64,000 nucleotides of DNA from Pseudomonadota bacterium (lineage in GTDB: Bacteria; Pseudomonadota; Gammaproteobacteria; JAKAQQ01). Where the stretch lies: assembly GCA_021810635.1 (NCBI GenBank), contig JAJZIH010000002.1:62001-126000 (forward strand), read 5' to 3'. Positions 37,440-58,264 of the stretch are shown piece after piece. The translations under genes were made by a program, and so were the position numbers. The notes under the pieces were generated by a model that did not search any database, was not told the origin of the DNA, and saw only the letters and a list, made by a program, of their open reading frames with translations. Every line of letters begins with the position of its first letter. The first letter of the stretch is position 1.

Positions 37440-38003
37440 CTAGTGCCCTCCCTCTGAACGGACAAAGATTGCGGGCCCGAGATCCGCGCAATGCTTCCGG
37501 AGCAGGGGAGCGAGATCGACCCCCAGGGCTTTGCCGTGGATGCGGATGACGCGATCCGGCCAGCGGACCGACAGGGAAACCAGCCGGATACATGAAGTGC
37601 CGAGTCCGGGCAGTCCCTCGGGCTGGGTATCCACCTCGTAGGCGCGCCCGGGATCGAAAGGGCCTTGGACGCGCAACACGAGTGCCCAGGGATGGTTGTT
37701 TCTGGGGTCACGTCGAAGCAGCCCGAGGCTGTTATAGGCGAGATAGACGAACCGGATTTCACTGATCGGGCGCGGGCTCGTATTGATGAAGGTCACATCG
37801 ATGGGGACAACAAGTTGGTGCTCGGGATTCCGGAGCACGCCCGGCAGGGTGACCTGATAGATCCAGATCGGGCTTTCCCGGGTCTGCGCGGACTGGATTT
37901 CCGAGTGAAACGCACGAACCGGGCTGACCGCACATCCGGACGAGAAAAGCACTCCTCCTGAAAGGATCACCGAACTTGCGATCTGCCAGATCCGTTCCCA
38001 CAT
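37440..38003 (-). CDS. Predicted lipoprotein, unknown function
   Basis: The 187-residue protein carries a lipobox (ILSGGVLFSSGCAVSP, with Cys24 as the lipidation site). It then has an immunoglobulin-like strand pattern (LVVPIDVTFINTSPRPISEI, FVYLAYNSLGLLRRD and RVQGPFDPGRAYEVD). It resembles small lipoproteins with a strand-rich fold that are encoded near envelope genes, but I do not recognise the family. It converges on the Skp-like gene, 26 bases apart, and diverges from the PRMT-like gene. Confidence 0.55.
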   Translation of the reverse strand: MWERIWQIASSVILSGGVLFSSGCAVSPVRAFHSEIQSAQTRESPIWIYQVTLPGVLRNPEHQLVVPIDVTFINTSPRPISEIRFVYLAYNSLGLLRRDPRNNHPWALVLRVQGPFDPGRAYEVDTQPEGLPGLGTSCIRLVSLSVRWPDRVIRIHGKALGVDLAPLLRKHCADLGPAIFVRSEGGH

Positions 38004-38085: not shown

Positions 38086-39078
38086 ATGTTGATCGACTAC
38101 CATCGCCGTCTCGCAGCAGACAGTGTCCGCAACGAGGCGTTCCGCCAGGCGCTTGAACGGACGATCCGCCCTGGCGCGACCCGGGTGGCGGACCTCGGTT
38201 CCGGTACCGGCTGGCTGGGCTTCATGTCCGATGTCCTGGGAGCCCGTTCCACCACCCTTTATGAGCGGGAGGTCTCTCTGGCGCATCTCTCGGCGTCGCT
38301 GGCGCGTCGCAACCGTCTTTCCGGGATCGAGGTTTTCGCCGAGGATTCGAGGGCGATACTGGATCCGGAGCCAGTCGATCTCGTGGTTTCCGAAACCCTC
38401 GGCAACCTTGGACTTGAAGAGGGAATTGGCGAGATCCTGTGGGACGCCCGGCGGTTTCTGGCCCCGGGCGGGATCCGCATACCGAGTACGCTCGCTCTTT
38501 ATGTTCGACCGGTCGGGGGCGACCGTTTCTGGGCCGAACTCGACCCCTGGAGCACCGGCGGATCGGGGCTCGACCTTGCGCCACTCAGTGAACTCAGCCG
38601 CCAGAATCTCTATGTACGCAGTTTCATTCCGGCCGATTTCGCCGGGATCCCCTCCGCCCGCATCTGGGACCGGGTCGATTTCGGGACCCGCTACCGGACC
38701 CGGAGACGATGCCGGGTGGACTGGTGCTTTGAACAGGAGAGATGGGTTTTCGGCTTCGCCCTGTGGTGGGTTGCCGGCCTCATCGACGGGGTAGCCCTCT
38801 CGACCGCACCCGAATCCCACCCCACCCACTGGGAACAGATTTTCGCACCCGTTTTGCAGCCTGTCCGGCTGGCCGCTGGCGAGGGGCTGGGGCTCGAGAT
38901 CAATGCCCGCTTTTCGGAACGGACCGGCGTTGGTTTTGCATGGACAGTTCATGCACCGCGGGGGATCCAGAGCCTTTCAATCCGGAAAGGTGATCTGGAA
39001 CGTCCGATGCCCACCCTGGCCCGGATCGGGAGCCATCGCGCCACCACCAAAACCCACAGGCGGGATTTTCGATCATGA
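38086..39078 (+). CDS. PRMT-like class I SAM-dependent methyltransferase
   Basis: The 330-residue protein has SAM motif I VADLGSGTGWLGF (about 34-46), an acidic residue in TTLYEREVSLAH, and then the double-E-type loop SETLGNLGLEEGIGEIL, with Glu103 and Glu111/Glu112. A C-terminal beta-barrel half ends in a THW motif (HPTHWEQIF, Thr247-Trp249). Motif I, double-E and THW are the hallmarks of protein arginine methyltransferases. Bacterial PRMT-like proteins exist but substrates are rarely known. Its stop overlaps the start of the amino-acid permease gene (ATGA), suggesting co-expression. A few other methyltransferases share this fold, so arginine as substrate is inference. Confidence 0.65.
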   Translation: MLIDYHRRLAADSVRNEAFRQALERTIRPGATRVADLGSGTGWLGFMSDVLGARSTTLYEREVSLAHLSASLARRNRLSGIEVFAEDSRAILDPEPVDLVVSETLGNLGLEEGIGEILWDARRFLAPGGIRIPSTLALYVRPVGGDRFWAELDPWSTGGSGLDLAPLSELSRQNLYVRSFIPADFAGIPSARIWDRVDFGTRYRTRRRCRVDWCFEQERWVFGFALWWVAGLIDGVALSTAPESHPTHWEQIFAPVLQPVRLAAGEGLGLEINARFSERTGVGFAWTVHAPRGIQSLSIRKGDLERPMPTLARIGSHRATTKTHRRDFRS

Positions 39079-40451
39079 GCGCAGAGCCCGTACGGGAAAA
39101 AGCCGGTCTGGTGAGGCGCCTTGGCCCTTTCACGGGGGTCATGGTGGTTTTAGGCATCGTGATCGGAACCGGGCTCTACCGGGTCCCTTCGCTGGTGGCT
39201 CTCGATGTCCACTCGACGGTCCTGTTCTACGGAGTCTGGATCGTGGGTGGAGGCATCGCTCTCTGCGGCGCGCTGTCGGTGGCGGAACTCGCGGCTCTCT
39301 ATCCTTATGCTGGCGGTCTTTACGTCTACATCCGGGAAGCCTTCGGCGCGCTTCCGGCTTTCCTGTTCGGCTGGATGTGGCTTCTGACCGACCCGATTTC
39401 CTGGGCCGCCCAGTCGCTGATCTTTTCCGAATACCTGGCGACTTTCCTGCCAATGGGGAATGTGGCGCGTCACGTGGCTTCTGCAGCCCTAATTGCCGGC
39501 GTGGCCCTGATCCAGATCCGCTCGGTCGGGATGGGGGCCCGGGTTCAGGACTTTTTCGGCTCGATCAAGCTGGTGACGCTCCTCGTCCTCGGATTCCTGC
39601 TCTGGTTCTGGGTGCATCCGGCCACAGCAGCAGTCCGCTCCTCCCACGTTCCGGCCACCGCCGCAGCCCCCGATGTTTTCGGCGGATTGATGCTGGCGCT
39701 CCTTGCGGTACTCTGGGCCTATGACGGTTGGGAAAACCTGACCGCGCTGTCGGGCGAAATGCGTGAACCGGAGCGAAACCTGCCGCTCTCGCTGATCATC
39801 GGAACGCTCCTCGTCCTCGCCCTCTACCTCGGCATCAACGGGGGATATCTCCACATTCTGTCCCTGTCCGGGGTGGCCGCCCACCCATCCGTGGCCGTTG
39901 CCTCGCTGGCGTCGTTCGGGAGTTTGTTCGCCACCATTTCCGTCGCTCTTCTTGTCATGGTTTCTGTCCTGGGATCGCTGAATGGAAGTGTTATGTCCGA
40001 CCCACGGGTGTTTTTCGCCATGGCCGAGGACGGATTGTTTTTCCGGAGAGTCGGGCGCGCCCATCGCCGGTTCCACACGCCCCATGTGGCGATCCTCATG
40101 GATGCTATTCTGGCCATCGTTTTTGTCTCGTTCCGGAGCTTCGCCGATTTGGCTGCTGCCTATGTTCTTGGGATCTGGCCGTTCCTCATGCTGGCTGTCC
40201 TCGGATTATTCTGGCTCCGCCGGAAGCGTCCTCATCTGGAACGCCCCTACCGGGTCTGGGGCTATCCCTGGGTACCGGGAATTTTCATTCTGGCTTCCAT
40301 CCTGGTGCTTCTGGGAGCCCTGTGGCAGAAACCGTTTGACGTACTCGTGAGCCTGGGCCTGACTCTGGTCGGGATCCCGGTCTACTGGACCTGGCAACGC
40401 ACCCATCGGCGCTTGCTCGAAAGCCGGTTGGAACCGGAACCCCCGGCCTAG
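39075..40451 (+). CDS. APC-superfamily amino-acid permease
   Basis: The 458-residue protein has about twelve membrane helices. It starts with the APC signature RRLGPFTGVMVVLGIVIGTG, continues with GGIALCGALSVAELAALYPY and AGGLYVYIREAFG, then LWAYDGWENLTALSGEMREP and GSLNGSVMSDPRVFFAMAED. These match the LAT/glycoprotein-associated-type branch, which carries neutral amino acids. Substrate cannot be read from sequence. It is translationally coupled to the PRMT-like gene and converges on phzF, whose stop shares four bases with its own. Confidence 0.85.
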   Translation: MSAEPVREKAGLVRRLGPFTGVMVVLGIVIGTGLYRVPSLVALDVHSTVLFYGVWIVGGGIALCGALSVAELAALYPYAGGLYVYIREAFGALPAFLFGWMWLLTDPISWAAQSLIFSEYLATFLPMGNVARHVASAALIAGVALIQIRSVGMGARVQDFFGSIKLVTLLVLGFLLWFWVHPATAAVRSSHVPATAAAPDVFGGLMLALLAVLWAYDGWENLTALSGEMREPERNLPLSLIIGTLLVLALYLGINGGYLHILSLSGVAAHPSVAVASLASFGSLFATISVALLVMVSVLGSLNGSVMSDPRVFFAMAEDGLFFRRVGRAHRRFHTPHVAILMDAILAIVFVSFRSFADLAAAYVLGIWPFLMLAVLGLFWLRRKRPHLERPYRVWGYPWVPGIFILASILVLLGALWQKPFDVLVSLGLTLVGIPVYWTWQRTHRRLLESRLEPEPPA

Positions 40452-41254
40452 GAACATCCGCCGTCGATCAGGATTTCCCCCCGGAGATAGAGGCGGCAAT
40501 CCCCCTCGAGATGGACCCGTTCGCCGCGCCGTTCCCCGCTGAGCTCGCCACCGCGAAGCGAACATTGCCGGGCATTCAGTACTTGACGGCCCAGCCGTTC
40601 GGACCAGTAGGGGATGAGCAGGCCATGGGCGGAGCCTGTGACCGGGTCCTCCGGGATGCCGATCGAAGGGGCAAAGTAGCGTGAAACGAAATCATGACTG
40701 ATGCCCGGAGCGCTGATGATGACATCCCGCGGATCCAGGGCTATGAGCCCCGCGAAATCCGGTTTGGCCTGTTCCACATCCTCGGGGTTTTCGAGAATGA
40801 CGACGAGATGACGACGGTTGCCGAAGCAGGTTCCCGCGGCGGACGGAAGGCCGAGGCAAGCCAGAAGGCGTCCGGAGAGATCTTGGGCAAGTGGATGACC
40901 GAGTCCGATTGCCGGTAGATCCAGTGCGTATCGCGTCCCGGCGCGTTCGACGCGGAGACGGCCGCCTGCGGTCTCGAATTCGACCTGGCGGCGTTCCGCA
41001 TCAAGGGTGAGGAGCACAAAGCCGGTCGCCATCGTGGCATGTCCGCAGAGTGGAACTTCGGTGCGGGGGGAAAACCACCGCAGGGGGGTGGGGTTTCGCC
41101 CCATGATGCAGTAAGCGGTTTCAGGACACCGGTTTTCCTCGGCAATGGCCAACAGGAGTTCATCCGGCAGCCAGTCGCTCAGGGGGCAGACCGCTGCTGG
41201 ATTTCCCCGGAACAGCTCCGAGGTGAAAACATCAACGTGATAAACCGGAATCAT
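40448..41254 (-). CDS. PhzF-family isomerase-like protein
   Basis: Start ATG 41254 (eight bases after AGGAG) is preferred over GTG 41263. The 268-residue protein begins IPVYHVDVFTSELFRGNPAA and has the catalytic glutamate in CPETAYCI. It also has WFSPRTEVPLCGHATMATGF, then FVSRYFAPSIGIPEDPVTGS and the final LRGEILIDGG. These are PhzF/YddE signatures. The family isomerises small acids; PhzF itself acts in phenazine synthesis, but no phenazine genes are nearby, so the substrate is unknown. It is probably a housekeeping YddE-like member. Confidence 0.88.
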   Translation of the reverse strand: MIPVYHVDVFTSELFRGNPAAVCPLSDWLPDELLLAIAEENRCPETAYCIMGRNPTPLRWFSPRTEVPLCGHATMATGFVLLTLDAERRQVEFETAGGRLRVERAGTRYALDLPAIGLGHPLAQDLSGRLLACLGLPSAAGTCFGNRRHLVVILENPEDVEQAKPDFAGLIALDPRDVIISAPGISHDFVSRYFAPSIGIPEDPVTGSAHGLLIPYWSERLGRQVLNARQCSLRGGELSGERRGERVHLEGDCRLYLRGEILIDGGCS

Positions 41255-41300
41255 CGGGTGCACTCCTGGATGACGGAGAGAAAAGGTCGGTTGATGCGGA

Positions 41301-50305: not shown

Positions 50306-51736
50306 TCAAAGCGGAGGAGGGGAAATGTCGTCGATCACGTTAAATTGCCCGGCGGCGGCGATCTTTTCCTGAGGGGTCCGGCGCAAACGCCACCCGACGA
50401 TCCCGAGACAGAGAAGGATGAAGAGGGGGGCCAATGCGAGTCGGGGCGAAGGCGGAACCAGGGTCAGGATCATGGCAGCGGCGATGAGCAATGTGGCCGT
50501 TCCCGGAATTACCCAATGCAGGAGCCAATGGCTTCGCCCCGTTCTGCGGGAGAACGGTCCGAGCGCACAGTTGGCCACGATGTGGCCTAGAAAGAGTCCC
50601 AGGCTGCTCAGGGTGATGAGCAGAATGTAGCCGTGGAAAGGACCCAACCAGAAGCCGGCAGCCAGGGAGACGGCAGCGGCTGCGATCGTGGTCGCGATCA
50701 GGGCCAGCGAGGGATTGCGCCGCGCATCGGTCCGGCCGAACCGCTCTGGAAACACGACACCGTCCCGGCCCAACGCAAAAATCATCCGTGCGCAGCTGAG
50801 CAGGGGGGCCAGGCTCCCGGCGAGCATCGAGTTCGCAATGAGCAGGAGGATGAGCCAGGCCAGGGTGGTCGAGTGGAGGACCTCCTGTACGAGAATGGCA
50901 CCCGGCACGAGCGACCGGGCGAAGCTGCCCATTCGGGTATAGCCCCAAGCCACCGTCAGTGCATAGGCCATGAGCAGGAACAGGACTGACGAGAAGAGGA
51001 AAGCCGCGATGACGGCCTGCCGGATGCGCTTTTGGGGAGACCGGGTTTCCTCGCCCAGGGCGACGGCCGCCGAAGAGCCGGAAACAGCAAACATGGCGAT
51101 CAGGACCCCGTGTCCGAAGCCGCTCAGGCCGCCTTTGGCCCAGAGGGGATTCAGGACCTGCCAGGTCACGGGGTGCGGGGAGTCGACGATCAGCAGGATC
51201 GACAGGATGAACAGAACGATGATTTCGGCGGTTCCTGTCCAGACCGCGTAACGCAATGAGGGGCGGATACCTTTGAGTGCCAGCAGCAGGACCACTCCAT
51301 AAAACAGGAGAGTGACCGGCCACCAGAGCCATCCCGGAGCAGCGATGCCCAGGAAGTGACGGAGGACTCCGGGGAGGAAGACGCCACCCACGAAAACGGT
51401 GGCATTGGTCAGGATGTTGAAGTAGGAAATCAGGAACAGGAAGGCGCCATAAATGGCCCAGCGGCTTCCCAGTCCTTGGGCAATGTAGCTGTAAAACCCG
51501 CCGGCCGAGGCGATCGACTTGGCGAACTGGAGCGTGGTATTGATCATGAGTCCGGCCGTGATGACGCCGGCGAGCATGGCGAGCGGTAGCGCACCCTGAG
51601 CATAGACGGCGGCACCGGTCAGGGTCGCTGCCATGGCCCCTGCCGGGGCGATCAGCGAGATCGACTGGTAAGTCAGCTGCCAGAAGCCGACCGCATCACG
51701 GTCCAGCGTCTGTGATCCGGTGCCGTTCCGACGCAT
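50306..51736 (-). CDS. APC-superfamily amino-acid permease
   Basis: The 476-residue protein has about twelve to fourteen membrane helices and the APC N terminus (LTYQSISLIAPAGAMAATLT). GGFYSYIAQGLG, VSGSSAAVALGEETRSPQKR and FALGRDGVVFPERFG with NPSLALIATT mark the family. It is divergent from the other APC permease at 39075 and probably transports a different amino acid or peptide-derived substrate. It lies just downstream of the S10 carboxypeptidase gene (26 bases), which may supply amino acids to it. Confidence 0.85.
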   Translation of the reverse strand: MRRNGTGSQTLDRDAVGFWQLTYQSISLIAPAGAMAATLTGAAVYAQGALPLAMLAGVITAGLMINTTLQFAKSIASAGGFYSYIAQGLGSRWAIYGAFLFLISYFNILTNATVFVGGVFLPGVLRHFLGIAAPGWLWWPVTLLFYGVVLLLALKGIRPSLRYAVWTGTAEIIVLFILSILLIVDSPHPVTWQVLNPLWAKGGLSGFGHGVLIAMFAVSGSSAAVALGEETRSPQKRIRQAVIAAFLFSSVLFLLMAYALTVAWGYTRMGSFARSLVPGAILVQEVLHSTTLAWLILLLIANSMLAGSLAPLLSCARMIFALGRDGVVFPERFGRTDARRNPSLALIATTIAAAAVSLAAGFWLGPFHGYILLITLSSLGLFLGHIVANCALGPFSRRTGRSHWLLHWVIPGTATLLIAAAMILTLVPPSPRLALAPLFILLCLGIVGWRLRRTPQEKIAAAGQFNVIDDISPPPL

Positions 51737-51762: not shown

Positions 51763-53301
51763 TTAGTGGTGATCCGGGGCAAGAACCTCGTGGTAGAACT
51801 GGATCAGGTTGCGGTCGAGGTGCGCGAGGGTCGCCGGGTGCAGGTAGAGCATGTGCCCGGAGTGGTAGAAGTGAAAATGAACCCGCGCCATGAGCGCGTG
51901 AGGTAGCTTCATGTGGGCAAAATCGAACTCAGTCTTGTAGAACGGGGTTGCAAGATCGAAATAGCCGTTGCCGGAGAAGATCTGGAGATAGGGGTTTTTC
52001 CTCATCGCATCCGCCAGATTGGGGGCGACGTCGGGCAGGGGCCAGGCGTACCGCGTGCCTGGGAAACGGTGGTTCCAGTTCCATTTCCGTATGACTTGGC
52101 CGTTCATGATCCGATAGGGACGATGGGCCACGTAATGCAAGCGGTCCCGGACGTACGCATTGAACGCCGCCGTGAAAGCGGGGGAGACGGCGGCCATGAG
52201 TGCGCCATAGTCGGGAAACTCCTCGGCACCGTCACGGTTGATCCCGGTGAAGCGGGCATCGAGCCGGCCGATGAACCGTTCATGCCCCTGGTTTCTCAGC
52301 AGCTGGGCGCGGAAACGGCTGGGGGTCACCCGCAGGTGGACCGCTGCGAGAAAGCGGGTGCTCAGGCCCGTATATTCATGGAGCTTGGCCAGTACGGCGG
52401 CCTTTCTGGCCGGGCTGAGGCGGCTTCCCTGGAAAAGCGCATAGGCGTAAGAGGTGCGCGCAAACCGTTCGACTTTTCGGATGAGGGGGGCGAGATGCGC
52501 CGGATGCTCGGGCAGGACGTGGTGATACCAGGCAACAGCGGTGTAGGAGGGCAGGTAGGTCACGTAACGCAGATCCGTACCCGGCCAGGAATCCCCGTAG
52601 TTCAGGATGGAGGACAGGAGGATCACGCCATTGCAGGTGATGCCCTGCCCCTCCAGATAGTCCACGAGATTGGCCGACCGGGTTGTCCCGTAGCTTTCCC
52701 CGAGCAAGAACTTGGGCGAGTTCCAGCGGTTGTTCTGGCTGATATAGTGCTCGATGAACTGCCCGAAGGAGCGCACGTCGGCATCAACCCCCCAGAAGCC
52801 CTTGTTCCGCCCCACTCCAACGACGTGGCTGTATCCGGTGCCAACTGCGTCGATGAACACCAGATCGGTGACCGGCAACAGACTCGACGGACTGGAAATC
52901 ACGCGGTAGGGTGGGGGTGGAGTGACCCGGGCATTGGCCGTGACGGCTCGTACGGCACCGAGTCCGCCCATGAGCAGCCAGACCGTGGAAGAGCCGGGGC
53001 CGCCGTTGTAGACGAAGGTGATCGGCCGCTGGGAGGGATGGCGGACGCCGGAACGGGTATAGGCCACGTAAAACATGCTGGCCGTCGGCTGGTTCTTGCG
53101 GTTCTTGAGAATGAGGGTACCTGCGGTTGCGGTATAGGGAATGCGGTGGCCATCCACCACGACCACGCCGTGGCTGACACTGCGCCGGGCCCGGATCGGT
53201 TGGGCAGGGAAGGCAGGATGCCGGGCCGGCAGGTGTGCCCAGGCTCCTGTGGAAGTCATGCTCAGAATGGCCAAGAGACCGGCTTTGCCGAGTTGACGCA
53301 T
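51763..53301 (-). CDS. Secreted serine carboxypeptidase, family S10
   Basis: The start at ATG 53301 has a strong AGGAGG six bases upstream; the longer frame is not needed. Of 512 residues, the first about 22 are a signal peptide (KAGLLAILSMTSTGAWA). The catalytic triad is intact: Ser203 in FLLGESYGTTRSANL, Asp449 in SGNGYFDLATPF and His483 in FYHSGHMLYL. GGPGSSTVWLLMGGLG is the oxyanion-hole region. S10 enzymes remove C-terminal amino acids and work at acidic pH, so a role in peptide use in an acidic periplasm or medium fits. It pairs with the APC permease downstream. Confidence 0.88.
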   Translation of the reverse strand: MRQLGKAGLLAILSMTSTGAWAHLPARHPAFPAQPIRARRSVSHGVVVVDGHRIPYTATAGTLILKNRKNQPTASMFYVAYTRSGVRHPSQRPITFVYNGGPGSSTVWLLMGGLGAVRAVTANARVTPPPPYRVISSPSSLLPVTDLVFIDAVGTGYSHVVGVGRNKGFWGVDADVRSFGQFIEHYISQNNRWNSPKFLLGESYGTTRSANLVDYLEGQGITCNGVILLSSILNYGDSWPGTDLRYVTYLPSYTAVAWYHHVLPEHPAHLAPLIRKVERFARTSYAYALFQGSRLSPARKAAVLAKLHEYTGLSTRFLAAVHLRVTPSRFRAQLLRNQGHERFIGRLDARFTGINRDGAEEFPDYGALMAAVSPAFTAAFNAYVRDRLHYVAHRPYRIMNGQVIRKWNWNHRFPGTRYAWPLPDVAPNLADAMRKNPYLQIFSGNGYFDLATPFYKTEFDFAHMKLPHALMARVHFHFYHSGHMLYLHPATLAHLDRNLIQFYHEVLAPDHH

Positions 53302-53437
53302 GGTGCACCTCCTGCTTGGGCCCAGTGAGGGCCGTGGCGGCTGTGGTTGGGGATGGGCCGGGAGGCAGGGGGCGTCCGGCACACGCCCGCTATCCTATAG
53401 CACCGGCGTACGGATGCCAAATCCGTTGGTGGGCGGA

Positions 53438-54102: not shown

Positions 54103-56214
54103 TCAGGCGCTGCCGAAACGCAGGTCCCCCCCCAGCCAGCGCTCGACCAGGGAGTCGACGGCCTGTGGATTTTCATCGGCCAGTCTTCTCGCGGCTTCCG
54201 GGAGGAGGGCCAGCAGGTCCCGATCCCGGTAGAGTTCGGCGATCCGGAAAGTCAGCCCCCCACTCTGCCGGGCTCCCCAGATCTCGCCCGGACCCCTGAT
54301 TTCAAGGTCGCGCTCCGCAATCCAGAATCCGTCGCTGCTTTGCCGCAGGACCTCAAGGCGCGACCGGGCATCGGGGGTCAGGTTTTCGTATATCAAAAGG
54401 CACTGCCCGCTGTGTGATCCCCGGCCGATACGGCCACGCAACTGGTGCAACTGCAAAAGACCGAGCCGTTCCGCACCATCGATCACCATGACCGTGGCCT
54501 CCGGGATGTCGACTCCCACTTCGACGATCGTGGTGGTGACGAGAACCTGAAACCGCCCTTCCCGGAATCCATCGATCAGTTGTTGCCGTTCGGCCCCGCC
54601 AATCCGGCCATGCAAGAGTCCCACCGGAAAACCGGGAAGGGCTTTCCGGAGTTCATCGAAAGCCGTTTCTGCCGCACGGCCGCCGGAGCCCTCATTTTCC
54701 TCGATTTTTGGGCAGACCCAGAAAATCCGCTGTCCTGCCTCGCACAGGGCCCGCAGCCGATGCATGATTTCGGTACGCCGTTCGGCCGGGAAAATCGTGG
54801 TGGTGATGCCTTGGCGTCCCGGTGGCAATTCATCCAGGCGGGATTGGTCGAGCCCGGCGTACAGGGACATGGCCAGGGTGCGGGGGATTGGCGTGGCGGT
54901 CATGATGAGCTGGTGGGGGCGCAGCCCGGAGCCCTTGTTGACGAGGTCCAGGCGCTGTTCGACGCCGAAACGGTGCTGTTCATCGATGATGACCGTCAGC
55001 AGCCGACCAAAGGCGACTTCCCTCTGGAACAGGTTCTGGGTGCCGAGGACCACACAGGGTGTGCCTGCAGCCAGTGGCTCCAGTATGGAGCGCCGCTGGC
55101 TTCGTGAAGAACGGGAAGCCAGTTTCAGCACCGGTTGGCACAGCGGAGCCAGGAATCTTTGAAAAGTGGCGTGATGCTGTTCGACGAGGAGTTCGGTCGG
55201 AGCCATCACGGCCAACTGTCCCTGGTTGGTCAGGGTGGCCCAGGCGGTCAGGATCGCAACCAGCGTCTTGCCAGAGCCGACATCCCCCTGGAGGAGACGC
55301 AGCATGGGTTTTGTCCGTACGAGATCGGAGGCAATTTCATGCCAGGCGCGCTGTTGGGCCCGGGTCAGTCTCCAGGGCAAGGTCTCGAGGAAATGTTCCA
55401 ACGGTTTGGCGTGGATGGTGAGGGGCTGGCTCTGCGCCCCCTCCCAGTCCATACGGATTTTCTGCACGGAAAGGGCATGGGCGAGTAGCTCTTCGAAGGC
55501 CAGTCGCCGCTGGAAGGGAGCGAGCCATTTCCCAAGGGCTTCTGCGTGGAGACCGGCTGGAGGCTGGTGGACGCCCCTCAGGGCTTCGAAAAGACTGCAG
55601 GATGCCCAGGGCCGGGTCAGTGCGGGAGGGAGGAGATCGGTCAGTTCGAGCCGGTTGTGGGCCATGAGATCAAGTGCTGCCGCGATCAATTGTTCCTGTG
55701 GACGCGATCCTAACCCGGCCCGTTTGGCATAAACCGCGGTCAGACAGGGCTTGAGCGGGGGCAGGCTGCCTTTGAAAACGCGGTATCGCGGGTGGATGAA
55801 CTCCCGGCCCAGTCCGCCATCCCGCAGGATGCCGTAGGCACGGACGATGAGGCCGCGCTTGAGACCGGTGTACTGGGAGTTGTAGAAGTGGAAAAACCGC
55901 AAGTGCAAATGCCCGCTGCCATCGGCAATGCGGCACAGAAGCTGACGACGGGGGGTGTAACGGATATCGGTCAGTTCAACCGTTCCCTGGACCAGCGCCG
56001 CCTGGCCCGGGACCAGTGCCCCGATGGGAATCACCCGGGTTTCATCCTCGTAGCGCAGAGGGAGATCGAAGAGGAGGTCTTCAATTCCACGGAATCCCAG
56101 TCGGACGATTTCCGCCAGGAACGACTCGCGGTCCCGTGGGATCCGTTGGCGGATTCGAGGCGGCTCGTGCCGGTCCGCTTCCACTCCGGATTCAATCCCG
56201 TTGCGCCGGCGCAT
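54103..56214 (-). CDS. recG: ATP-dependent DNA helicase RecG
   Basis: The 703-residue protein starts at ATG 56214, whose ribosome site is weak, and overlaps the end of the S9 gene by 23 bases. After a wedge domain (LFDLPLRYEDETRVIPIGAL, VQGTVELTDIRYTPRRQLLC, HLHLRFFHFYNSQY) come the helicase motifs LLQGDVGSGKTLVAILTAW, MAPTELLVEQH, VVLGTQNLFQ, IDEQHRFGVEQRL and TATPIPRTLAMS. The VTTTIVEVGVDIPEATVMVI strand and QLRGRIGRGSHSGQC close the second lobe. RecG remodels stalled forks and Holliday junctions. Length matches E. coli RecG. It lies upstream of ubiC. Confidence 0.95.
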   Translation of the reverse strand: MRRRNGIESGVEADRHEPPRIRQRIPRDRESFLAEIVRLGFRGIEDLLFDLPLRYEDETRVIPIGALVPGQAALVQGTVELTDIRYTPRRQLLCRIADGSGHLHLRFFHFYNSQYTGLKRGLIVRAYGILRDGGLGREFIHPRYRVFKGSLPPLKPCLTAVYAKRAGLGSRPQEQLIAAALDLMAHNRLELTDLLPPALTRPWASCSLFEALRGVHQPPAGLHAEALGKWLAPFQRRLAFEELLAHALSVQKIRMDWEGAQSQPLTIHAKPLEHFLETLPWRLTRAQQRAWHEIASDLVRTKPMLRLLQGDVGSGKTLVAILTAWATLTNQGQLAVMAPTELLVEQHHATFQRFLAPLCQPVLKLASRSSRSQRRSILEPLAAGTPCVVLGTQNLFQREVAFGRLLTVIIDEQHRFGVEQRLDLVNKGSGLRPHQLIMTATPIPRTLAMSLYAGLDQSRLDELPPGRQGITTTIFPAERRTEIMHRLRALCEAGQRIFWVCPKIEENEGSGGRAAETAFDELRKALPGFPVGLLHGRIGGAERQQLIDGFREGRFQVLVTTTIVEVGVDIPEATVMVIDGAERLGLLQLHQLRGRIGRGSHSGQCLLIYENLTPDARSRLEVLRQSSDGFWIAERDLEIRGPGEIWGARQSGGLTFRIAELYRDRDLLALLPEAARRLADENPQAVDSLVERWLGGDLRFGSA

Positions 56215-58264
56215 GGACCGGTGGATAGACGGGCATGAGGGTCCGATCCAGGAAAGCCACGATCGTCCGCCAAATCCGTGTGCGGGTCTGGGGTCCGGTG
56301 AAGTGCCAACCTTGTGTCGGCTCTTCCATGATCTGGACCGGAATCGAGTGTTTGCGGAGGATTGAAACGAAACGATCTTCCCCGCTGGAAGGATCCAGCG
56401 AATCCCGACCCCCCTCAACCAGGAAAACCGGTGCGCGCACGGACTGGGCATGGGCGAGGGGCGACTCGGACTCAAGATGGTGACGGCCGAGCACCGTCTC
56501 CAGGAACCACCGGCCGAAGGGCGTTCGCCACAACCGGTCTGCAGGACTTTTCAGCGAGGGCAAGCGGTAGATCCCATCCAGACTCACGATCGCACGGACC
56601 CGTTTGGGGTGTTCGGCCCCAAGCATGAGGGCCGCATATCCGCCGTAGCCGTGCCCGGCCAAGGCCAGCTTCCCATCCGGGATCTTGTGCTGCCGGGCAG
56701 CCCAGCGAACAGCTGCCCAGACTCCCTTGAGCATGGCCCCTCCCCATTGCCGGTACCCCAGCCTGCGCCAGCCTCTCCCCCGCCCAAAGGAACCCGGATA
56801 GTCCACTTCCATGACCACGAAGCCGTGGCGCGTGAGTTCCTGCAGGCGTGGATCAAAGCGCCAACGCATGCCTTCCCGGAAGGGATGGCCATGGATCCAG
56901 ACGACCAGACCCTTCCGCGCGCTGACCGCCCTGTGCGGGAAAGCCAGGTAAACCGGTTCTTGCAGTCGGTGCCAGGGGACGAGGAACGCGTGCCAGCGGG
57001 ACAGTGCGGGAGGTGCTATTTCCGGCTGAACGCTCATGAGGTAGCGCAGGAGATGGCGTTTGGGGTTGAAGAGGTAGTATTCCCCCGGATTACGGTCTCC
57101 TCTCACCCGAACCAAGACCGTGGAATGATTGTGGTCGACACTCAGAATGTTGATCCGCTGGTTGCGGAAGACCGGAGCTAGCAACCGGAGCCATTCGGCT
57201 TCGGGGTTTTTCGGGGCGATCACGACCCAGTGTGGCTTCCGGACCCCCACCCAGACGGCATAGATCCGTCCGGAGGGAGCCCGGGCAATCCGGCGGATGT
57301 CGTTGCTGGGGTCCACGTAGAGACGGGTCTCCTTCCTGGTGCCGGGATTTACGTCGTAGAGCCCGAGGGTGCCGTAGTGACTGGCCCTGAGGAGGTAAAA
57401 ACGGCGGTTACCGGGCAGGAAGCCCAAAGGTCTGATACCGGATGCCGGGCCCGAGCCTTCGAGCAGGAAACTCAGGTTCTTCCATTCCAGAGTATGGGGT
57501 TCCCGGAACCATAACTCGGTCCGTCCCGTGAGGGCGTTTGTACCGAAGGCCAGACGCACGTGTCCATCGTTGTCGGGGAGCAACTGTCCGTTGGTCATTG
57601 GACTGTGGATTCCGCGTAGCAAGTGTCCAGTCCGGACGTTCAAGATTTCGGCTTCCGGCGCAAGATCGGCGGAGGAATAGCGCTCGACGACCATCCGGTC
57701 TGGGTCATGGTCGAACGGGGACAGGATCAGGTAGATGGCGACGTTGACCTCCAGACGGTGCTTTCGGTAGCCGGCGAGGAGGTGGCTTTGCGCACGGTGA
57801 TGGATCAGGTGAATGGCCCAAATCTCTCCGCTTCGGAGAGTTCTGCGGTAGCCCGGCAGCTTGACCCGGGTGGTGACCAAGAGGGTCCGGGATCCGGCCC
57901 ATCTCAGGTGATTGATCCGGCTTTCGCGAACCAGGTGCAAACGCTGGTCGTAGCGGGGCATCCTCAGGTTGAGGAGCGCGAGGCCTTCCTGCCGGGCATC
58001 GCGAAAGTAACCAGCAATGGCCAGCCAGTGACCGTTGGGGGAAAGCCTGGCATGGGTGGCACGGGAGTTGGCGAAGCCGGATGCCAGGGGGGGGATGGCT
58101 GCTTTTCCCCTCCGTGCAAATCCGGCACCGGAGGCGGGTAGTAGACAGATTGCCAGGAGGCTCCAGAGTCCCAGGGCCCGTGGGGTGATATGAACCGGAA
58201 ATCGACAGGTTGAATATTCAGCCGAAGCGGATCTTGCTTTCAAGGTTGGTGCGGGAATCGGCAT
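56192..58264 (-). CDS. S9-family prolyl-oligopeptidase homologue with catalytic Ser replaced by Gly
   Basis: The 690-residue protein has a hydrophobic signal-like stretch (LGLWSLLAICLLPASG), a beta-propeller half (about residues 80-440) and an alpha/beta-hydrolase C-terminal half: VVWIHGHPFREGMRWRFDPR, VMEVDYPGSFGRGRGWRR, then LALAGHGYGGYAALMLGAEH. S9 enzymes have GGSYGG or GxSxGG at that position, and here Gly539 replaces the nucleophilic serine. A histidine (His654 in QGWHFTG) and an acidic site (VEGGRDSLDP) remain. It should be inactive as a serine peptidase. Both ends overlap neighbours: 47 bases with the PilT-like gene and 23 with recG. The start is uncertain. Confidence 0.75.
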   Translation of the reverse strand: MPIPAPTLKARSASAEYSTCRFPVHITPRALGLWSLLAICLLPASGAGFARRGKAAIPPLASGFANSRATHARLSPNGHWLAIAGYFRDARQEGLALLNLRMPRYDQRLHLVRESRINHLRWAGSRTLLVTTRVKLPGYRRTLRSGEIWAIHLIHHRAQSHLLAGYRKHRLEVNVAIYLILSPFDHDPDRMVVERYSSADLAPEAEILNVRTGHLLRGIHSPMTNGQLLPDNDGHVRLAFGTNALTGRTELWFREPHTLEWKNLSFLLEGSGPASGIRPLGFLPGNRRFYLLRASHYGTLGLYDVNPGTRKETRLYVDPSNDIRRIARAPSGRIYAVWVGVRKPHWVVIAPKNPEAEWLRLLAPVFRNQRINILSVDHNHSTVLVRVRGDRNPGEYYLFNPKRHLLRYLMSVQPEIAPPALSRWHAFLVPWHRLQEPVYLAFPHRAVSARKGLVVWIHGHPFREGMRWRFDPRLQELTRHGFVVMEVDYPGSFGRGRGWRRLGYRQWGGAMLKGVWAAVRWAARQHKIPDGKLALAGHGYGGYAALMLGAEHPKRVRAIVSLDGIYRLPSLKSPADRLWRTPFGRWFLETVLGRHHLESESPLAHAQSVRAPVFLVEGGRDSLDPSSGEDRFVSILRKHSIPVQIMEEPTQGWHFTGPQTRTRIWRTIVAFLDRTLMPVYPPVHAPAQRD

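Follow-up and report, generated by a model that had tools for sequence, protein, structure and literature searches.

We analysed a window of 64,000 nucleotides from the genome of a Pseudomonadota bacterium; it is a portion of a 174-kb contig, and the draft genome from which it derives measures 1.88 Mb and is 86.77% complete. Two genes lie in tandem on the forward strand at the locus of interest: one for a 330-aa PRMT-type SAM-dependent methyltransferase (38086..39078, ATG start), recognized by sequence and fold matches, and one for a 458-aa amino-acid permease of the APC superfamily, LAT-type (39075..40451, ATG start), recognized by the PF13520 profile and by its LAT/xCT relatives. As the first-pass annotation had stated, the methyltransferase stop overlaps the permease start, and this can be read directly in the sequence: the permease ATG (39075-39077) and the methyltransferase TGA (39076-39078) lie in a shared ATGA of 4 nt (39075..39078, forward strand). 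The methyltransferase frame is open for 17 codons further upstream (347 vs 330 aa); this alternative start was rejected, as the additional stretch is unconserved in the family. Upstream, and divergent from the methyltransferase gene, is a reverse-strand ORF of 187 aa lacking a Pfam match (37440-38003), and downstream, convergent with the permease gene, is a reverse-strand PhzF-like gene (40448-41263). By Pfam scan, an OmpH-like protein is also among the neighbours of the methyltransferase gene in the window. The 187-aa ORF occupies the same place in four other genomes of the family (L011, L012, L013, L014). A scan of the window for RNA genes, tRNAs and tandem repeats found none, and scans for promoters and terminators returned consensus matches and nothing more.

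The assignment of the enzyme as PRMT-type is well supported by sequence comparison and by the predicted fold. In a phmmer search against solved structures its best relative is zebrafish PRMT2 (E 2.3e-16, residues 5-290), a match which, judged from the sequence, is far beyond chance. The same search recovers 79 distinct solved-structure sequences at E <= 1; almost all of the best 60 of these are named PRMTs, PRMT2 being followed by PRMT6, CARM1, PRMT8, 9, 3, 1, 5 and 7, with the PRMT5 chains matching over about residues 80-291. The Pfam scores of the window protein fall under the gathering thresholds (PRMT5_C 27.6 vs 30.3; PRMT5 19.6 vs 22.9; PRMT_C 18.8 vs 27), and an NCBIfam search with it returned no PRMT name; of the 23 members of the clade described below, 22 match PRMT_C at E <= 0.001, at best with E 2.3e-14. 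Purifying selection acts on the gene, with dN/dS at 0.18 against the copy from the same genus and 0.14-0.17 in four pairs within two sister genera, the overall range of 0.14-0.18 being that of the five least saturated pairs. A match to the PADLOC defence model mad2 (E 2.7e-7) was rejected because it is limited to the common SAM-binding domain, covering residues 16-132 only. With regard to mobile elements, no relative of the methyltransferase was found in the viral contigs or plasmids searched; the best row in BFVD is a methyltransferase of an uncultured Caudovirales phage (TM 0.58-0.61).

The available text of PMC12925635 lists six core motifs for PRMTs, together with an N-terminal YFxxY in type I and PLxxN in type II enzymes. 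All six motifs of that list can be placed in the window protein, post-I by its acidic residue alone. Motif I, of consensus VLD/VGxGxG, is VADLGSGTG (residues 34-42; 38185..38211, forward strand); this predicted SAM-binding element has Asp36, Gly38, Gly40 and Gly42 invariant in 23/23 relatives. The acidic residue of post-I is Glu60, which 21 of the 23 relatives share and the other 2 replace by Asp; the V/I-x-G/A part of the V/I-x-G/A-x-D/E consensus is unmatched (TTLYE). Motif II is present as VDLV (residues 97-100), a conservative variant of E/K/VDII, and motif III (LK/xxGxxxP) as LAPGGIRIP (residues 125-133), with Gly129 and Pro133 invariant in all 23. The double-E loop (SETLGNLGLEEGI, residues 102-114; 38389..38427, forward strand) holds Glu103 and Glu112, both invariant in 23/23, which are nine residues apart in sequence as in the PRMT double-E loop and align with the Glu pair of PRMT2. 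The THW loop, THWEQ (residues 247-251; 38824..38838, forward strand), is likewise invariant across the 23. Asp12, Arg15, the three motif-I glycines, Glu103, Glu112 and Thr247-His248-Trp249 are all kept in every relative. In the accessible portion of PMC8619983 the double-E glutamates of PRMTs are described as neutralising the guanidinium, and the role of the THW loop is likewise described. The combination of motif I, a double-E loop with Glu103 and a THW motif in a single bacterial protein, on which the first-pass annotation was built, is hence found in full; of the two candidates it gave for the second glutamate, 111 and 112, the alignment with PRMT2 and the invariance of Glu112 favour the latter, position 111 being Asp in 2/23 relatives.

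The YFxxY motif was sought at the N-termini of the 23 aligned relatives and found in none (0/23), these proteins beginning 4-10 residues before the column of His6; ahead of residue 6 there is no type II PLxxN motif either. Because both are absent, we file the window protein neither as type I nor as type II. Among the ten more distant rows of alignment A3, two PRMT-fold proteins (L054 1480-2607 and L056 1456-2586) have Asp/Tyr at the two Glu sites, lack THW and carry a C-terminal extension; since both glutamates and THW are gone in them, these motifs can be lost, and their conservation throughout the clade is therefore informative. A same-class PRMT (L052 1483-2439) is nearer the classical kind, with SEWMGHCLFYEAM, THWDQ and, six residues ahead of the His column, a Tyr.

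An AlphaFold2 model of the methyltransferase built from 33 sequences has a mean pLDDT of 91.3 and a pTM of 0.87, and falls below a pLDDT of 50 at residues 306-308 and 313-330 only; it replaces an earlier, poor model on 7 sequences (pLDDT 66.8), in which residues 105-131, the double-E region, were below 50. The model contains a Rossmann domain, a β-barrel and an arm region. Its 50 best Foldseek matches are all PRMT4, 6 or 2. VIA-align, run over the top 1000 Foldseek chains, ranks PRMT1 highest (Z 32.7 and rmsd 2.2, with 297 residues aligned over model residues 2-302), and all of its 50 best matches are PRMTs; matches that differ by no more than one Z unit count as ties, which leaves the PRMT subtype unreadable from their order. 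The arm-like region between the barrel strands (about residues 145-200; 38518..38685, forward strand) aligns with PRMT2 free of any large deletion and is modelled with helices at 147-152, 165-171 and 182-185; from this we infer that it functions as the PRMT dimerization arm. The first-pass annotation had named the lack of a PRMT barrel as a finding that would refute it; the barrel is present in the model, so that the PRMT reading stands; with the sequence match and the fold taken together, it is borne out more strongly than the first-pass annotation had claimed.

On sequence grounds, a compact PRMT clade lacking YFxxY spans several bacterial phyla. The methyltransferase is matched at E <= 0.001 in 10 of 56 genomes, its own included, 8 of which belong to its own family; within the order, 8/9 genomes carry it, the exception (G002) being an 85%-complete draft. 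When GTDB genome contigs were scanned with an alignment of 7 rows, 55 pattern matches came up. Relatives are encoded at 23 of these loci; 7 of them repeat the family contigs, and the other 16 lie in the phyla over which the clade is spread, Pseudomonadota, Planctomycetota, Myxococcota and Peregrinibacteriota (Peribacteria). Among these are two named strains of Pseudomonadota: Fontimonas thermophila DSM 23609 and Sinimarinibacterium flocculans DSM 104150. A sample of 398 genomes from the phylum has 31 with a match at E <= 1e-15, and those inspected include PRMT-like proteins of other kinds, some of them behind TPR-like repeats; ten of the 30 non-own matches were taken into alignment A3 and the tree, and 20 were left out (frame not found, long fusions, or for brevity). 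One locus (L017), its gene cut by a contig end, was omitted from alignments A1-A3. In the maximum-likelihood tree of 33 rows the window protein falls in a clade of 24 rows (support 99/97); the seven family rows group together (98/94), and a long branch (1.76) leads to the g2 rows. Alignment A3 and the tree comprise no eukaryotic sequences, the origin of the clade being outside their scope. At four loci (L058, L060, L067, L070) PRMT-like domains appear, by eye, to be fused behind TPR-like repeats.

The permease is matched by PF13520 (AA_permease_2; E 9.7e-53, 180 bits vs curated 27) and, below the curated cut-off, by TIGR00911 (E 4.2e-62); its solved relatives are LAT/xCT chains (E down to 4.1e-56). 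Its gene adjoins that of the methyltransferase in 6/6 assessable genomes of the family, that is, those whose contig extends beyond the methyltransferase gene (G001 and G007 have contigs that break off within it); in G002 neither gene was found. The pair runs in the same direction in four genomes (G000, G004, G006, G008), where the spacing is -4 to +1 nt, and is convergent with overlapping 3' ends in G003 and G005. The methyltransferase start in G003 overlaps an FtsX-type gene, which is preceded by an ABC ATPase gene, and the corresponding start region in G005 is nearly identical in sequence. Between UbiE and the pair there are 2.6 kb in the window, as against 43-45 kb in G003 and G005: the pair has therefore stayed together through rearrangement, and nothing else speaks as strongly for a link between the two genes. 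In the G004 permease, one in-frame TGA is reported within the matched stretch (L081, G004:C45:43688-45016); this is likely the match overrunning the permease stop codon (gene end L013 7701).

The gene overlap alone had led the first-pass annotation to suggest that the permease may be modified by the enzyme, or that an imported amino acid may be its substrate. The adjacency in six of six genomes means that a link stays possible; against it, the overlap is of an ordinary kind, with 6 of the 33 same-strand pairs of the window overlapping as tightly by a rough gene call, and the pairing, seen in one small family only, has been reshuffled within it. A search for an APC relative around 16 loci outside the family, in most cases covering about 8 kb to either side, found none; in turn, a 99%-complete genome (G048) has a permease 52% identical to that of the window, yet no PRMT match. 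A partner shared across lineages was also sought: the neighbours of 17 loci were listed and 20 proteins scanned, 17 of these with a Pfam match, and none is common to the lineages, the kinds encountered being an MFS transporter, FtsX, an ABC ATPase, urocanase, a sigma factor, a thioesterase, FeoB, MdoG and others. We conclude that the permease gene is probably an operon neighbour of the methyltransferase gene, a functional link between the products being possible and weakly supported.

Arginine methylation is regarded as mainly eukaryotic, and PRMT-type enzymes are little studied in bacteria. The window protein is like the eukaryotic type I PRMTs (PRMT1, PRMT2, CARM1/PRMT4, PRMT6, PRMT8) in its Rossmann domain, barrel and arm region, and shares with them motif I, a Glu pair at the same spacing and THWxQ; the structural similarity of the model reaches Z 31-33 over about 300 residues. 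The two differ in that identity is about 20-23%, the N-terminal YFxxY is missing from the window protein and its double-E loop reads SETLGN where type I PRMTs have SEWMGY. With PRMT5 (type II) it shares weak Pfam matches (PRMT5_C and PRMT5) and chain matches by sequence; unlike PRMT5 it keeps THW, and the large N-terminal domain of PRMT5 is too big for a protein of 330 aa. In bacteria, arginine methylation has been reported, sparsely, in the available texts of PMC8466066 and PMC10117894, the former concerning a topic other than a PRMT. Bacterial arginine methyltransferases also include the predicted PRMTs of Legionella pneumophila and the arginine methyltransferase Rv1988 (PMC10117894), which that text, as far as it is accessible, discusses among enzymes aimed at the host; compared by description, the window gene has nothing host-related in view, and it belongs to an uncultivated bacterium. 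SznE/StzE, too, are bacterial and act on the arginine guanidino group (PMC11705231, in part); here again the comparison is by description, and whereas they are part of the streptozotocin biosynthetic cluster, no cluster is seen beside the window gene. Searches of the open literature, with most subscription papers outside their scope, returned no study of the clade or of a bacterial PRMT-permease pair.

The results computed here, which comprise the homology, the fold, the conservation of the active-site residues, the purifying selection and the gene overlap, make it likely that the window gene encodes a catalytically competent compact PRMT which acts on arginine, most likely in a cytosolic protein or peptide, with the permease as its probable operon neighbour. 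In such an enzyme SAM would be bound in the Rossmann domain, the arginine guanidinium would be held between Glu103 and Glu112, beside the THW loop, and one or more methyl groups would be passed to a guanidino nitrogen. The arm, seen in a single-chain model, would probably mediate dimerisation. In its own lineage the gene is probably co-transcribed with that of the LAT-type amino-acid transporter, presumably an importer. A substrate with an RGG tail was sought in the own genome (86.77% complete) using one narrow pattern, a series of three RG codon pairs with single-residue spacing, and none was convincing: there were 10 matches vs 4 in the reversed control, and the 8 of these 10 frames inspected by eye are mostly short open stretches, none of them RGG-tail-like. 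Given the incomplete genome and the narrow pattern, this negative is a weak one.

The main rival to protein or peptide arginine methylation, unlikely in our estimation, is that the enzyme works in the manner of SznE/StzE and methylates free arginine or some other small guanidino compound, the permease moving substrate or product. The consistent adjacency of the permease gene in the family accords with it, the missing N-terminal segment could open the pocket more, and SznE/StzE set a bacterial precedent in that they make N-omega-methyl-L-arginine (PMC11705231, in the text available). However, the genes beside the methyltransferase in the window (OmpH-like, 187-aa ORF, PhzF-like) include no biosynthetic ones, no neighbour is common to the clade, and the G048 permease occurs in a genome lacking a PRMT match. 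We regard as improbable a PRMT fold devoid of methyl-arginine activity, either serving another SAM-dependent methyl acceptor or being an inactive regulatory relative: YFxxY is indeed absent, the relatives L054 and L056 lack the glutamates, and an inactive PRMT, TbPRMT3, is known, but the accessible text of PMC8226133 has TbPRMT3 losing the double-E and THW residues, both of which the window clade keeps in 23/23.

Methylation of the co-encoded permease, with regulation of transport as its outcome, is quite improbable. Besides the overlap or 1-nt gap in four genomes and the adjacency in six, it draws on the permease sequences: 13 columns are Arg in 6/6 family permeases, 12 of them being also Arg in both outside relatives, and the remaining one, permease Arg15 near the N-terminus, is Lys in both, one of which is that of G048. 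The Arg/Lys exchange is, however, conservative, with just two outgroup sequences compared; two genomes have the pair in convergent orientation, the PRMT gene overlapping an FtsX-type gene in G003 and probably in G005; tight overlaps are common in the window; and no similar permease was found at the 16 outside loci. To the more specific scheme in which the clade makes methyl-arginine in bacterial proteins and the importer is here a target, switched via methylation of its cytosolic Arg15, we give very little credence.

The favoured reading, a compact PRMT acting on protein or peptide arginine, belongs to a known kind, the PRMT family. With the catalytic residues conserved across bacterial phyla, named strains included, the question of native bacterial methyl-arginine becomes directly testable; should a core devoid of YFxxY prove active, it would reveal how small a part of a PRMT suffices. 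Elsewhere in the window a second APC permease gene (50306-51736, reverse strand) adjoins a gene for an S10-like peptidase (51763-53382, reverse strand), and an S9 peptidase gene lies at 56192-58264; together these suggest peptide and amino-acid use.
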